14,924 bases of DNA from Dehalococcoidia bacterium UBA3254. Its GTDB lineage: Bacteria; Chloroflexota; Dehalococcoidia; Dehalococcoidales; UBA3254. The notes beneath the pieces were generated by a model, which saw only the letters and a list, made by a program, of their open reading frames with translations, was not told where the DNA came from and searched no databases. The position numbers and the translations under genes were made by a program. Each line of letters begins with the position of its first letter. Position 1 is the first letter of the stretch. Below, in pieces: positions 8,548 through 14,924 of this stretch. The DNA lies in the NCBI GenBank assembly GCA_002362735.1, contig DEUU01000123.1:1024-15947 (forward strand). Direction: 5' to 3'.

Positions 8548-8961
8548 CTATGGCTTTCTTACCTTCACGATGCCTAGTTCGGCGTCCATTTCCACATAGT
8601 CTCCGGTTTTTATCAGCTCCAGGGGGTTGCCGTCCAGTCTATCTATGACGGGTATATCGCCGAGAATCGCTCCCACTACCACAATCGATTTCGCCCGCAG
8701 GTTAATGATCCCGCTGGGTCCCTTGTGAAGCCTGGCCATTTCATAGATTACATCACTTCCCCCGGTAGACCCCTTTTCCACGGGAAAAATCAGTATCTTC
8801 CCTGTAATGCTCACCCCTTCAAGCTCGTGGTCTTTCTCAACAATTTGTCCTTTTTCCGGATTTACTCCTCCGGCAAAGCCGATCGGTTGCTGAGATACTA
8901 CCGCCTCTCCCTGAGCTTTCCCTTTGACCACTTTGCATCCTTTGAGTATTAGTTTATCCAT
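8548..8961 (-). CDS. aconitase X small (swivel) subunit, DUF126
   Basis: Small swivelling domain of aconitase X (DUF126), here a separate protein of 137 residues, the typical length of the two-subunit form. With the large subunit it makes a dehydratase. In archaea such pairs are phosphomevalonate dehydratase; some bacterial relatives dehydrate cis-3-hydroxyproline. The sequence shows LKGCKVVKGKAQGEAVVS, then PISFAGG-like PIGFAGGVNPEKG, then FPVEKGSTGGSDVIYEM, whose Ser in GST (residue 65) is the expected catalytic Ser. VVVGAILGDIPVIDRL and a GDYVEMDAELGIVKV strand close the domain. Two adjacent ATGs exist; 8961 is chosen because GGAGGT is 5 bases from it but only 2 from 8964. The large-subunit stop directly abuts ATG 8964, so the two are coupled. 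Confidence 0.88.
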   Translation of the reverse strand: MDKLILKGCKVVKGKAQGEAVVSQQPIGFAGGVNPEKGQIVEKDHELEGVSITGKILIFPVEKGSTGGSDVIYEMARLHKGPSGIINLRAKSIVVVGAILGDIPVIDRLDGNPLELIKTGDYVEMDAELGIVKVRKP

Positions 8962-8964
8962 CAT

Positions 8965-10209
8965 CTACCTCCAGGCTCCGCTCACCGCTGCTTCAATGCA
9001 GTCCTCCGTGGACCCTAAATAAGAGGGGATGTTCACGTCGAAGTCCATGAAGGCAATCCGGCACATTTTCACGGAGTTAGTGGCGGCAATCCTGTGCCCG
9101 CGATTTTTTAAATACCCGTTCGGCGCGAGGAGAGGGCAAAATTCTGAGAGAATCTTTCCTCCGGCGGACTCAATAATCTCTTTGTAGCCCATTCGATCCG
9201 CATAATCTTTCACGATGCGAGAGGTGAGGACCCAGAGTTCTACGCTGGGCTTCAGTTTTTTCCCTTCCAGAATTCTGGAAATATCCTTGATCTCCCCGAT
9301 CGAAGCGTGAGGACAACCCAGAATTACCAGGTTAATTTGTCTCTCCGTTGGCCGGCAAAGCGATTCCCTGGTCTCCTTCAGGTCTTTTTCGCTGAATTCA
9401 AAAATTTGACCGTCTTTTAATTCCCTTCCGCCAAAAGCCGCCTCTCTGTCAGGTGCTTCAGGTGTAATGCCAACGATATGAAAAAGGGCTACACTGCCTG
9501 AAGTTGCGGTGCCTGCGCCAAGGTGTTTCAACTGGTCTACCGAAATTGGAGCCGTGATGCCGGTAAAGACAGGGACCCTGTCTTCTGCCAGCTTACCGGT
9601 AAAATAACCCAGAGCTCCAAAATCATTCAGTTCCTTCAGATCGGCAGTTACCCTGATCTCCAGGTCTCCCAGGCGGTTCTGGTCCAGGTGGAAGCCGTAT
9701 TCCGGTACTCGCCCGCAAAATGCAGCTGCAAGTGAGCTTGGCCCGCCTTCTCGGTTGGTTCTGGCGCCAAGGACGGAATTGGCGAATACTACCGCTGAGG
9801 ATTCGCTCCAGGCGATGTGTTCTCCCGATCTTGGAAAGTGACCTACCAGATATGGGGTACAGGTATTGCTCAGAAACATCCCCATTTCGGCACAGGTGTT
9901 TATTAGTTTCAGCCATTTTCGGGCAAATTCCTCCGGGAAACCCAGATCCTGCCATAAAAGGGGATCGATCCCCAGAGGATTAGTATCAGTGAAGGCTTTA
10001 AATTTACCTCCTTTGCGGGCCATTTCTTCGCAAAGCAAAGCCCCAGCTTTACCCATTTTAAAACCCGCCACCAGATGGGCTGATGCTATCGGAATCATTC
10101 TATTGGCGTCGTAGCACTCTCCCAGCCCTACCATAATCTCCATCGATTTTTGGACCGCATACCCGTATTTCCCTTCCAGCATCTCATTTTCTTCTCTGGT
10201 TAATTGCAT
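8965..10209 (-). CDS. aconitase X large (catalytic) subunit, DUF521
   Basis: Large subunit of aconitase X, 414 residues from ATG 10209, the usual length. It should bind an iron-sulfur cluster and dehydrate a hydroxy acid together with the DUF126 protein. Family motifs run in order: MQLTREENEMLEGKYG, PIASAHLVAG, FTDTNPLGID, SNTCTPYLVGHFPRSGEHIA, SESSAVVFANSVLGARTNRE, the GG-P-SSLAAAFCGRVPEYG segment and the final ATNSVKMCRIA. Cys in NTCTPY, LGCPHAS and VKMCR are the candidate cluster ligands. Both phosphomevalonate dehydratase and cis-3-hydroxyproline dehydratase are possible; no proline-catabolism gene or other mevalonate-pathway gene is visible to decide. The longer reading to 10269 is rejected because it runs through the promoter. 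It is divergent from hcp. Confidence 0.88.
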   Translation of the reverse strand: MQLTREENEMLEGKYGYAVQKSMEIMVGLGECYDANRMIPIASAHLVAGFKMGKAGALLCEEMARKGGKFKAFTDTNPLGIDPLLWQDLGFPEEFARKWLKLINTCAEMGMFLSNTCTPYLVGHFPRSGEHIAWSESSAVVFANSVLGARTNREGGPSSLAAAFCGRVPEYGFHLDQNRLGDLEIRVTADLKELNDFGALGYFTGKLAEDRVPVFTGITAPISVDQLKHLGAGTATSGSVALFHIVGITPEAPDREAAFGGRELKDGQIFEFSEKDLKETRESLCRPTERQINLVILGCPHASIGEIKDISRILEGKKLKPSVELWVLTSRIVKDYADRMGYKEIIESAGGKILSEFCPLLAPNGYLKNRGHRIAATNSVKMCRIAFMDFDVNIPSYLGSTEDCIEAAVSGAWR

Positions 10210-10392: not shown

Positions 10393-11961
10393 ATGGCCGA
10401 TATGTTTTGTTTTCAATGTGAGCAGACCGCCGGGGGCAAAGGATGTACCCGGTTGGGAGTATGTGGAAAAACTCCTGAATTGGCGGGAAAACATAACGAG
10501 CTGACAGCTGCCTTGATCGGCTTGGCCCGGGCAGCCCAGGGAAAGACCCCCGGTAAAAAAGCTAATGAACTGGTCATGCAGGGGCTTTTTGCGACCGTTA
10601 CCAATGTTAATTTTGATCCAAAGCGCATTGAGGAACTGAAAAATCAGGTCCAGGCGGAAAAAGTCAGGCTGGGGGGAGCGGCCGACTATAAGGCGGACGA
10701 ATTATTTATCGGAGAGCAGGATATTGTTTCTTTGCGTTCAACTTTGCTCTTCGGTCTGCGCGGCATGGCGGCTTATGCCTGGCACGCTTACGTCCTTGGC
10801 AAAGAAGATAAAGATGTCACCGCCTGGTTCTACAAAGGCTTAAATGCAGTGGGCGCCGATCATACCGTAGATGAGTGGCTGGGGTTGATCATGGAGTTCG
10901 GTCAGACCAATTTAAAATGCATGGCCCTCCTGGATGAAGCCAATACTTCGGCTTTCGGCCAACCCACTCCGGTTACAGTACCCCTGAAGGTGGAAAAAGG
11001 TCCCTTCATTGTCATTACTGGCCATGATCTCTTAGATCTTAAGCAGTTGTTAGAGCAGACCCAGGGTAAGGGGATCAATATTTACACCCACGGCGAAATG
11101 CTTCCCGCCCACGGTTACCCCGGTTTGAAGAAGTATCCCCATCTTAAAGGAAATTACGGCACTGCCTGGCAGAACCAGCAAAAAGAATTTGACGGGCTAC
11201 CGGCTCCTATTCTTTATACTACCAACTGTATTATGATTCCACGGGCTTCTTATGCCGACCGAATTTTCACTACTGCCGTCGTCGGGTTCCCCGGTATGAC
11301 TCATATCCCGGAGCAAGCGAACGGTATTAAAGATTTTACTCCGGTTATTAAAAAGGCTTTGGAACTGGGTGGCTGGAATGAAGACAAGCAATTTACCGGC
11401 ATTAACGGCGGAATTTCGGTCACCACCGGGTTTGCCAGTAATACCGTTCTGGGAGTGGCTCCTCAGGTTATTGAGGCTGTAAAGTCCGGCGCGATCAAAC
11501 ACTTCTTCCTGGTAGGAGGCTGCGACGCTGCTAAACCTGGCCGCAATTATTACACCAATTTCGTCAAACAGACTCCCGGCGATACCGTAGTCCTGACGCT
11601 GGCTTGCGGAAAATACCGCTTTAATGACCTGGATATCGGTACCATCGGAGGCTTACCCCGCATCATGGATGTTGGACAATGCAATGATGCCTATTCGGCT
11701 ATAAAAATCGCCCTTGCCCTGGCGGATGCATTCAAGGTGGGAGTCAACGACTTGCCTTTGACTCTGGTCCTGTCATGGTATGAACAGAAAGCCGTGGCTG
11801 TACTGTTAACTTTGCTTTCTCTGGGCATTAAAAATATCTATCTTGGGCCTTCGCTGCCGGCTTTTATCTCACCCAACGTCCTGAAAGTCCTGGTGGAGAA
11901 ATTCAATATCAAGCCTATCAGCACTCCTGAAGCCGATATGCAGGCGGTTCTTGCTAAATAA
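10393..11961 (+). CDS. hcp: hydroxylamine reductase / hybrid-cluster protein, class I
   Basis: Hybrid-cluster protein of 522 residues (prismane protein), a cytosolic enzyme that reduces hydroxylamine to ammonia in vitro and is linked to nitric oxide detoxification and protein S-nitrosylation. The N-terminal cluster motif is C6-x2-C9-x8-C18-x5-C24, the spacing of class I proteins from strict anaerobes such as Desulfovibrio. Ligands of the hybrid 4Fe-2S-2O cluster can be seen: H211 (TGHDLLDL), E235 (GEMLPAHG), C279 (TTNCIM), C377 (VGGCDAAK), C405 (LACGKYRF), C430 (GQCNDAYS) and E464 (WYEQKAVA). Their spacing closely follows the known Desulfovibrio enzyme. AAGGAGGG precedes ATG 10393. It is probably cotranscribed, at least in part, with the cupin gene 85 bases downstream, through the hairpin at 11966-11990. 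No hcr reductase gene is in the window. Confidence 0.96.
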   Translation: MADMFCFQCEQTAGGKGCTRLGVCGKTPELAGKHNELTAALIGLARAAQGKTPGKKANELVMQGLFATVTNVNFDPKRIEELKNQVQAEKVRLGGAADYKADELFIGEQDIVSLRSTLLFGLRGMAAYAWHAYVLGKEDKDVTAWFYKGLNAVGADHTVDEWLGLIMEFGQTNLKCMALLDEANTSAFGQPTPVTVPLKVEKGPFIVITGHDLLDLKQLLEQTQGKGINIYTHGEMLPAHGYPGLKKYPHLKGNYGTAWQNQQKEFDGLPAPILYTTNCIMIPRASYADRIFTTAVVGFPGMTHIPEQANGIKDFTPVIKKALELGGWNEDKQFTGINGGISVTTGFASNTVLGVAPQVIEAVKSGAIKHFFLVGGCDAAKPGRNYYTNFVKQTPGDTVVLTLACGKYRFNDLDIGTIGGLPRIMDVGQCNDAYSAIKIALALADAFKVGVNDLPLTLVLSWYEQKAVAVLLTLLSLGIKNIYLGPSLPAFISPNVLKVLVEKFNIKPISTPEADMQAVLAK

Positions 11962-11965
11962 AAAC

Positions 11966-11990
11966 ATTGGGGCGACCGAAAGGCCGCCCC
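11966..11990. repeat. GC-rich hairpin after hcp, possible dispersed repeat
   Basis: GGGGCG-A-CC (11969-11977) faces GG-C-CGCCCC (11982-11990) across a GAAA tetraloop, with one A/C mismatch. No T-tract follows, so it is a poor intrinsic terminator and may instead pause transcription or protect the mRNA end between hcp and the cupin gene. The left side ATTGGGGCGACC matches the minus-strand arm of the hairpin at 7612-7642 apart from one G. Confidence 0.5.
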
Positions 11991-12046
11991 TTACACTGGC
12001 AAACCGCTGAAGGACAAAAAATTCAAATACTGCCTGGAGGTTAAAA

Positions 12047-12391
12047 ATGTCACCAAATGATAAACGGAATAGCCCTGGTAATCTGGCGCAGGTTTCGCGC
12101 CTGGTCGGTCAAATAGATTATCAAGAATGTTCCATCGTCAGTAAGACCCTTATCGATAAGCCGGGCGGTACGGTGACCGCTTTTGCTTTCGGGGAAGGCC
12201 AGGGATTAAGCGAGCATACTGCTCCCTTTGATGCTCTCGTCTATGTTTTTGACGGCGAAGTAGAAGTAAGTATTTCCGGAAAACCTCATCGCCTGAAAGA
12301 AGGCGACATGATTATCATGCCTGCGAACGATCCGCACGCGTTAAAAGCCATCACGCGATTTAAAATGCTGCTGGTCATGATTAAATCTTAA
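12047..12391 (+). CDS. small single-domain cupin protein
   Basis: A 114-residue cupin (beta-barrel) protein of unknown substrate. The first cupin motif is seen as GLSEHTAPFDALVYVFDGEV and the second as EGDMIIMPANDPHALKA. One His in each motif (SEHTAP, PHALKA) can bind a metal, but the second His of the classical HxH is replaced by Ala, so metal binding may be incomplete or use other residues. GGAGG lies 7 bases before ATG 12047. It follows hcp on the same strand and probably shares its transcript, which would tie it to the same stress response; that link is inference. Confidence 0.82.
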   Translation: MSPNDKRNSPGNLAQVSRLVGQIDYQECSIVSKTLIDKPGGTVTAFAFGEGQGLSEHTAPFDALVYVFDGEVEVSISGKPHRLKEGDMIIMPANDPHALKAITRFKMLLVMIKS

Positions 12392-13399: not shown

Positions 13400-13657
13400 A
13401 TGAGAATAGAAAACAAACTGCAAAGGGCTTCCGTAATGCGTGCCAGAGACCTCGGGGGAAAAGTGCAGATCATCTGCGCGGACGACCATGGTTTGCTTTC
13501 GGTTTATATGGATTATTCGCCCTTTTGCCAGTTCACTCGCATCTTATGTGAATCCGGCCTGAAAATGAAAGGAACGGTTATTGAATATAATCGGGAACTG
13601 GTACGGGTAGCTTTGCCCGACCGCCGCTGGAAGCAGTTGGCTACAACCGCCAGTTAG
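13400..13657 (+). CDS. hypothetical small protein
   Basis: An 85-residue protein that I do not recognise. It has a strong CGGAGGA ribosome-binding site 6 bases before ATG 13400 and a plausible soluble composition, rich in basic residues at the N-terminus (MRIENKLQRASVMRARDLGG) and with alternating hydrophobic strands afterwards (KVQIICADDHGLLSVYMDYS, GTVIEYNRELVRVALP). No signal peptide, membrane segment or zinc cluster is present; two Cys (in FCQF and ILCES) are not in a known motif. It lies alone between the cytochrome gene and the MCM-like gene, followed by a palindrome with a T-run. The small size and good start suggest a real gene of unknown function. Confidence 0.6.
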   Translation: MRIENKLQRASVMRARDLGGKVQIICADDHGLLSVYMDYSPFCQFTRILCESGLKMKGTVIEYNRELVRVALPDRRWKQLATTAS

Positions 13658-13780: not shown

Positions 13781-13906
13781 CAAAAAAATGACGTCCACCG
13801 CCAAAATCGAAACAGGTTCGGTACTTTTGGCTAACTATACTTTGTGTGTGAAAAACACTAAAATAGTCTAATCGAATTTGCTTCTGCGGGGTTTCGGAGG
13901 TAGTTG

Positions 13907-14924
13907 ATGGAGCTTAACAATATTCCGAATCTGACTCAGACCGAGCGGAGAACACTCGAAAGTATGGGGCTGGATAGTGTGGAAAAAGTGGCTCAAAGAT
14001 CGGTTTCCGAACTGGGTCTGGCGAAAAAAGGCGAACGCATTATCCAGGTGGCGAGAAATATTATTGCCCATCAAAATATTCGCGATATTTCGATCTCTGA
14101 AGATCTTGTTACGATCACGCTGGCGGATGCCTCCAAAGCCGTTATTACCTCCGTTGAGCATGTTTTAAATATGCGTCATTCCAATACTGTGCGGAATCTT
14201 CAGGCTGATAGGCTGCTGGTCTGCAAAATGACCATAAAACCTTGTTTTGTCTGCCAGGAAAATGCGGAAATCTTTTGTACTGACTGCAGTGAGTTTTTCT
14301 GTGGTCAGCATCAAAATCATGGACCTCACTACAATATTAAAAAAGTGAAAGACATAAATGCGGAATTTGAGGAAATAAAACAGGCCGCTCAAGAATACGT
14401 ACCGATGAGGTCTGATAAAAGAAGGGACTCTGATCTTGCGCCTATCAGCGAAGTAGTGAAACGTGCTCAGGAGGTCGGATTTTCCGGTTTTGCCGAAACC
14501 TTCTTTTCGGAGCTCGAGGGCAGCGAGGTAGTTAAGAGAGCCCTGGCCTGTGCCCTTTTCTCCACTCCTGAAGAACCGGTCCATGTCCTGGTAGTCGGAG
14601 ACCCGGCTGGTGGTAAATCTCTGGCCAGGGATATCATTACCCGAAAACTGGGTACGGATATCGAGCTGGTGGGGGCAAATGCCACGCGAGCCGGGCTTGT
14701 CTGTAATCTTTCAAATGGTGAGCTGGGTGTTCTGGCTTACGCGAAGAACAAGATCGTCCTGGTTGATGAATTTGATAAAATCCCGGAACAGGATATCGAA
14801 AATTGCTACGAGCTCCTTTCTAATGGAAAATGCAGCGTGCACTCTGCAAAAATCCATGAGACCATCGAGTCCCATTTCGTCATGATAGCCATGGCAAATC
14901 CCGTAAATACCGTTTTCGTCGAGG
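13907..14924 (+). CDS. MCM-like AAA+ ATPase with B-box zinc finger (3' end outside window)
   Basis: A reading frame open from ATG 13907 (behind GGAGG, 13896-13900) to the window edge, 339 codons so far. Residues about 8-50 look like a helix-hairpin-helix DNA-binding region. Residues 113-141 match a B-box zinc finger: C113-x2-C116-x7-C124-x2-C127-x4-C132-x2-H135-x2-H138-x2-H141. From about residue 210 an MCM-type AAA+ core begins: SELEGSEVVKRALACALF, Walker A GDPAGGKS (K237), the TRAGLVCNLSNGELG segment, Walker B ending in D287-E288-F-D290-K291, a helix-2-insert-like GKCSVHSAKIHET and the sensor-1 Asn in MANPV (N331). MCM proteins are hexameric DNA helicases of archaea and eukaryotes. The classical MCM N-terminal OB domain is not evident. 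Helicase activity is inference; a related AAA+ of the MCM/RavA/Mg-chelatase branch remains possible. Confidence 0.82.
   Translation, partial: MELNNIPNLTQTERRTLESMGLDSVEKVAQRSVSELGLAKKGERIIQVARNIIAHQNIRDISISEDLVTITLADASKAVITSVEHVLNMRHSNTVRNLQADRLLVCKMTIKPCFVCQENAEIFCTDCSEFFCGQHQNHGPHYNIKKVKDINAEFEEIKQAAQEYVPMRSDKRRDSDLAPISEVVKRAQEVGFSGFAETFFSELEGSEVVKRALACALFSTPEEPVHVLVVGDPAGGKSLARDIITRKLGTDIELVGANATRAGLVCNLSNGELGVLAYAKNKIVLVDEFDKIPEQDIENCYELLSNGKCSVHSAKIHETIESHFVMIAMANPVNTVFVE

Follow-up and report, generated by a model that had tools for sequence, protein, structure and literature searches.

Domain architecture of an MCM-like protein encoded in a Dehalococcoidia contig

We analyzed a 14,924-nucleotide stretch of contig DEUU01000123.1 from Dehalococcoidia bacterium UBA3254 (hereinafter, the window), the last gene of which encodes an MCM-like AAA+ protein on the forward strand (13907..14924). 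This is a real protein-coding gene: the frame is open from the ATG at 13907 up to the window end (339 codons, with TTG at 13904 as an alternative start), and none of 2000 base-shuffled versions of the segment keeps a frame open for as long. The frame, with a length beyond chance, and its motifs (GDPAGGKS at residue 231, TRAGL at 260, LVDEFDK at 285, and MANPV at 329) agree with a preliminary description of this DNA. Because the window ends inside the gene, the arginine finger and lid are seen only in relatives, such as the 477-amino-acid protein P0001 that is 89% identical to the window protein. These relatives comprise members with and without a B-box zinc finger (hereinafter, B-box and B-box-free members). 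Residues were counted in alignment A4 (87 proteins from the first 120 listed, without the N-terminally short fragments P0043-P0046), using 42 B-box and 44 B-box-free members; P0050, likewise an N-terminally short fragment, begins inside the finger and is a piece of a B-box member, and was excluded from the B-box-free set.

The MCM-type AAA+ module starts at residue 168 (14408..14924, forward strand) and is recognizable by profile, fold, and motif evidence. Its landmarks are Walker A (residues 231-238), Walker B (285-290, with the helix-2 region between the two), a pre-sensor-1 hairpin (308-321), and sensor 1 (329-333). The Pfam MCM profile (PF00493) matches the window protein fragment with E = 1.3e-14 (54.4 bits, cut-off 23.3), P0001 with 68.9 bits (4.6e-19), and, at E<=0.1, all 27 scanned members of the family (best 3.2e-20). 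The same profile exceeds its threshold in all 14 control genomes, bacteria such as E. coli among them, so the match is unspecific by itself, and the argument rests on the margin over other families and on the fold. In the 27 scanned members, Pfam ranks MCM above Mg-chelatase, AAA_5, AAA_3, and BrxL_ATPase; Mg_chelatase reaches 1.7e-4 on P0001 and at best 6.4e-6 among the 27, for which the best AAA_3 value is 9.7e-4. Neither in P0001 nor in these members are RavA/MoxR or Mg-chelatase profiles a better match than MCM. The solved structures nearest by profile are MCMs in all of the best 60, and those nearest by fold are MCMs in all of the best 50, both with VIA-align and with Foldseek. Profiles and fold thus place the AAA+ core nearest to MCM, as had been proposed from the motifs.

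Walker A, Walker B, and sensor 1 are present in the window protein, and the arginine finger, which the preliminary description considered might be lacking in the missing part, is found in the full-length relatives (S353-R354 in 42/42 aligned B-box and 44/44 B-box-free members). The residue that follows it (F355 equivalent) is F in all 42 B-box members and either C (21/44) or F (23/44) in the B-box-free ones. In the predicted model, residues 308-312 and 317-321 form the strands of the pre-sensor-1 hairpin, the tip of which is basic, with K or R at position 315 in 41/42 B-box and 43/44 B-box-free members. The DUF2087 family matches residues 373-420 of P0140, in the C-terminal lid region (24.9 bits, cut-off 22.4), and the same label is attached to the B-box-free proteins P0119, P0138, and P0171.

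The architecture outside the AAA+ module differs from that of canonical MCM, in which an N-terminal tier consists of the A domain, the zinc B domain, and an OB fold, and the C-terminus bears a winged helix. Compared with archaeal and eukaryotic MCM (PF00493; SsoPfMCM 4r7y/9nuk and SsoMCM 6mii), the family lacks both: the 20 Pfam families that the 27 members match at E<=0.1 include no MCM N-terminal or OB family, and the MCM match extends to residue 476-477 of 477, such that the AAA+ module ends the protein and no canonical winged helix follows it. The proteins are about 440-490 amino acids long, compared with 650-919 for the archaeal plasmid and virus MCMs examined, and the NCBIfam model minchrom_main_MCM scores 33.8 bits on the window protein fragment, under its cut-off of 940. 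These data support the classification of the protein as MCM-type by its AAA+ module and not as a canonical MCM by architecture.

Instead, residues 1-57 (13907..14077, forward strand) are predicted to adopt a helix-hairpin-helix (HhH) fold of the RadA/Rad51/NusA-AR2 type, with a root mean square deviation of 1.2-2.6 to the N-terminal HhH domain of RadA/Rad51. The HhH fold is common to RadA/Rad51 and this family, in which it is joined to an AAA+ module and not to a RecA core. The N-terminal HhH of the preliminary description stands as a predicted fold, together with a weak HHH_5 match in the relative P0060 (17.7 bits, cut-off 27), and finds no counterpart at the profile level in the window protein itself, for which Pfam lists no HhH family even at E<=10. 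The HhH domain is followed by a small beta-beta-alpha-beta-beta domain (residues 58-106; 14078..14224, forward strand) that, taken with the helix at 147-163, shows weak likeness to the C-terminal domain of ArgR.

A B-box zinc finger occupies residues 113-141 (14243..14329, forward strand), identified by its ligands, a fold match to the PML B1-box, and Pfam zf-B_box matches in relatives. The ligand series is exact (C113-C116-C124-C127-C132-H135-H138-H141, pattern C-C-C-C-C-C/H-H-H), and this spacing occurs in none of 20000 residue-shuffled versions of the protein; all 42 aligned B-box members retain the five Cys and have C or H as the sixth ligand. The fold of the finger, which had been proposed from its ligand pattern, is predicted as a B-box with high confidence, and the first Foldseek match is the PML B1-box (E 0.026). 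In the window protein, zf-B_box (PF00643; 14.5 bits, cut-off 24.1) and ANCHR-like_BBOX (22.5 bits, cut-off 27) remain below their cut-offs; at E<=0.1, zf-B_box matches 19 of the 27 scanned relatives (best 1e-5), and a precomputed label of this family is attached to P0008 alone of the 42 B-box members listed. The eight-ligand series and the fold are common to the PML/TRIM B-boxes, but here the finger is inserted in the N-terminal region of an AAA+ protein, and, unlike in PML/TRIM, no RING family is among the Pfam matches of the 27 members. PMC4506424 gives the B-box motif as CC/HCCCCHH and places B-boxes in both prokaryotes and eukaryotes; hence the finger alone is not strange, and the earlier view of such fingers as mainly eukaryotic has to be corrected.

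Distribution and phylogeny of the family

Used as a protein query, the window piece yielded 390 matches at E<=1e-3, and two further searches yielded 490 and 458; 120 matches were listed from each, and all listings together make up P0001-P0251. In P0001-P0042, the zinc finger is captured by a Cys-pair regular expression in 39 of the 42 proteins, the other three being one residue shorter in the first pair; the expression finds no finger in the remainder of P0047-P0120. Full-length B-box relatives are mostly 472-490 amino acids long, and the B-box-free members listed are mostly about 440-465. The latter, which comprise most of P0047-P0251, have the same domain order (HhH, small domain, MCM AAA+), and their AAA+ modules are on average 57% identical to those of the B-box branch. 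At the B-box site, 35 of the 44 aligned B-box-free members have 2 residues and 9 have 19-21 residues free of Cys, compared with 39-42 in the B-box branch. The preliminary description is amended in that the protein has close relatives in archaea that lack the finger. Three B-box-free members (P0199, P0208, and P0215) are 622 amino acids long, that is, ~175 residues longer, with the extra part N-terminal in P0199, and match no additional non-AAA+ Pfam family at E<=0.05.

Organism names were available for 20 of the listed proteins, all from archaea: 17 from Thermoplasmata/Thermoplasmatota/Thermoplasmatales and 3 from Helarchaeota. Their source labels are hypothetical protein, the automatic "DNA replicative helicase MCM subunit," or, in one case, "DUF2087 domain-containing"; the unnamed B-box-free proteins could include bacterial ones. 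A contig scan of genomes for relatives recovered one locus only, L001, on a contig of the Dehalococcoidia metagenome-assembled genome G001, which encodes a 478-amino-acid relative (50% identity). This is the only B-box member listed with a known host (P0037), and therefore the designation "bacterial branch" rests on that genome and the window. The same genome accounts for each bacterial match in the overlapping draws from the class (1 of 197 genomes), the order (1/156), and the phylum (1/400); the gene is therefore no part of the common gene complement of the order, but these are draft genomes, in which absence is weak evidence.

In a tree of 29 AAA+ cores, the B-box clade was held together (99/100), and the family was not joined to RavA, MoxR, ComM, or BrxL. 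The MoxR loci L020 (Walker A pattern absent), L021, and L024 were left out of this tree, the two MoxR sequences included were cut from a slightly misplaced anchor, and the branches of RavA, ComM, BchI-like proteins, and BrxL are very long. RavA and the two MoxR sequences lie beyond a 100/99 branch, but very long branches meet in this tree. Placement of the AAA+ core in a RavA/Mg-chelatase clade, raised previously as a challenge to the MCM assignment, is favored neither by the profiles nor by this tree. The same tree does not separate MCM from ComM, BchI-like proteins, and BrxL; forcing the family and MCM into one clade costs 0.38 log units and is not rejected (approximately unbiased test, p-AU 0.476). 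A second tree, built without the long-branch AAA+ families, included 49 members chosen from the 251 listed (15 B-box and 34 B-box-free) and three canonical MCMs as an outgroup. Here too, the B-box clade was held together (97/99), and the B-box-free sequences formed one group with weak support (86/45), a result that does not show the bacterial clade to branch from within the archaeal clade.

The gene has probably passed between archaea and Dehalococcoidia, and either direction is compatible with the second tree. Its composition (G+C 46.9%; third-position G+C, GC3, 48.7%) is within the range of its neighbors (GC3 38.6-60.0) and gives no sign of recent arrival. PMC4158269 notes that an archaeon and a strain of Dehalococcoides contain related proviruses, which suggests gene traffic between such groups, not of this particular gene.

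Genomic setting and proposed role

Five of the 17 window proteins (radical SAM, HIT, AHSA1, Hcp, and cupin) match a 20-kb stretch of another genome, G179, with 61-77% identity. G179 shares its order group with the L001 genome and provides the best match for the radical SAM protein, which is present in 144 of the 197 genomes of the class. These matches identify the window as chromosomal DNA of Dehalococcoidia type. After Hcp and cupin, G179 carries genes other than the MCM-like gene, which was not found in that genome. DnaB is matched strongly in G179 (1.9e-98) and partially in the L001 genome; because the DnaB model matches all 14 controls (above cut-off in 10), only the strong match is telling. 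Among the proteins scanned, no partner gene beside the MCM-like gene is common to the window and L001.

With roughly even confidence, we propose that the protein, encoded on the chromosome, is an AAA+ ring ATPase of MCM type that moves or remodels DNA to maintain the genome, be it in repair, recombination, or fork rescue, and is not the main replicative helicase. The computations show the order of the domains, a predicted fold of MCM type, conservation of the catalytic residues, a B-box clade, and a chromosome-like setting of the window; from these, one can envisage the ring, its hexamer number, DNA translocation, partner contacts, and the pathway as follows. The subunits would form a ring, probably a hexamer, via the MCM-type AAA+ module, and ATP would be hydrolyzed between subunits, with Walker A and Walker B contributed by one subunit and the arginine finger by its neighbor. 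The basic-tipped pre-sensor-1 hairpin could then move DNA through the pore. The canonical MCM collar is replaced by the RadA-like HhH domain and the small alpha/beta domain, with the HhH domain expected to contact duplex DNA or a recombination partner; the B-box in the collar of the bacterial branch might be the contact for adjacent subunits or for a partner protein.

Besides the unspecific MCM profile match and the unresolved position of MCM in the 29-core tree, several observations weigh against this proposal. The helix-2 region is ~8 residues shorter than that of SsoPfMCM, which implies a pore unlike that of a normal MCM helicase. All Foldseek matches of the N-terminal part are weaker than E 0.001, and HhH domains also contact proteins, so the domain is no proof of DNA binding. 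The Walker A lysine, kept in 41 of the 42 B-box members, is replaced by arginine (GEPAGGRT) in P0037 (L001:3465-4898), the sole B-box member with a known host; the replacement may be an error in the sequence, a variant site, or the mark of an inactive ATPase. No repair or recombination neighbor was detected in the window or among the three open reading frames scanned in L001, and the rarity and patchy occurrence of the gene among bacteria fit an accessory or element-linked role too. Finally, the literature searched contained no biochemistry on the family.

The strongest alternative, which we consider unlikely albeit deserving of serious attention, is that of a recruited remodeller, an MCM-type ring that would act on a protein or nucleoprotein complex, such as a recombinase filament, with the HhH and B-box domains docking and without unwinding DNA. 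The shortened helix-2 region would suit such a protein, as would the likeness of the HhH domain to RadA/Rad51 and NusA AR2 domains, some of which have been solved with protein partners (SuhB-AR2; histone H4 tail-RAD51 lobe), and the proximity of the finger to the PML B1-box, for which PMC6706441 reports oligomerization. However, the basic hairpin tip and the MCM catalytic residues are kept, and the folds nearest to the AAA+ part, among the matches listed, are MCM DNA helicases.

A helicase that replicates a plasmid, provirus, or integrated element, one of the options of the preliminary description, is improbable. It would conform to PMC5862659, in which bacterial MCMs are described only in phages, with integrative plasmids added, and to the patchy distribution (one genome of 156 in the order). 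Yet no integrase, primase, or relaxase families were found among the 16 other window proteins scanned, and three scans of viral contigs recovered no relatives, although each used two short patterns and would miss members without those stretches. Matches on phages and plasmids were only partial, with identities below 30%, and many of them carried an MCM annotation; for the B-box-free P0064, the phage match of greatest extent, to Halorubrum virus BJ1, is 23% identical over 68%. B-box-free members sit on contigs of up to 2.3 Mb, with the archaeal P0095 and P0136 on contigs of 1.9 and 2.3 Mb.

By analogy with BrxL, the MCM-like protein of BREX, an anti-phage defense ATPase might be imagined, to which weak matches of the PADLOC candidate-defense model PDC-M37B in 3/3 members scanned (1.1e-5, 4.1e-7, and 9.9e-10, a further point against the genome maintenance role), an NCBIfam BrxL match to the window protein fragment (E 0.026, 13.2 bits, cut-off 329.3), and the patchy distribution would be congenial, but this too is improbable given that Pfam BrxL_ATPase reaches only 2 of the 27 members at E<=0.1 (best 0.021), that three other window proteins scanned have no PADLOC match, that Pfam scans of the window revealed no defense family, and that the B-box-free members listed are of even length.

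On a broader scale, we tentatively suggest, as a possibility somewhat short of even, that the genome maintenance protein proposed here belongs to an undescribed second cellular branch of MCM in Thermoplasmatota and Helarchaeota that crossed into bacterial chromosomes, with a rebuilt collar (RadA-like HhH, and the B-box in bacteria), and serves maintenance of the host genome. Replication in archaea and eukaryotes is driven by MCM, whose N-terminal collar is thought to set DNA loading and grip. A natural MCM-type family that lacks this collar and has a recombinase-type HhH instead would allow the purpose of the collar to be probed directly. The family would further provide an MCM encoded by a bacterial chromosome and not by a mobile element, as well as an AAA+ protein that bears a B-box, which makes testable both the notion that bacteria dispense with MCM for their own chromosomes and the role of B-boxes outside ubiquitin systems. 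Described bacterial MCM-like helicases and BrxL belong to mobile elements or defense, whereas the window gene is found in the company of ordinary chromosomal genes and has close relatives in archaea; the MCM-like helicases of phages, plasmids, and SCCmec are, like the window protein, MCM-related AAA+ proteins in bacteria (PMC5862659). If true, the second-branch interpretation would contradict the statement in that paper that MCM helicases have no part in the replication, recombination, or repair of bacterial chromosomes. PMC3984812 and PMC3307487 deal with archaea that have multiple copies of MCM. In line with the earlier remark that no protein with this domain order was known, no description of the family was found in the literature searched, which was largely outside subscription journals.

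Other genes of the window

Just upstream of the MCM-like gene, at 13400-13657, lies an 85-amino-acid open reading frame with no Pfam or PADLOC match. Aconitase X, at 8548-10197, is encoded by two separate genes, one for the swivel domain and one for the large subunit. The gene for Hcp (prismane) is followed by a small cupin gene in the same order in the window (10393-12391) and in G179 (L009, 7786-9745), and a functional link between Hcp and this cupin is possible.
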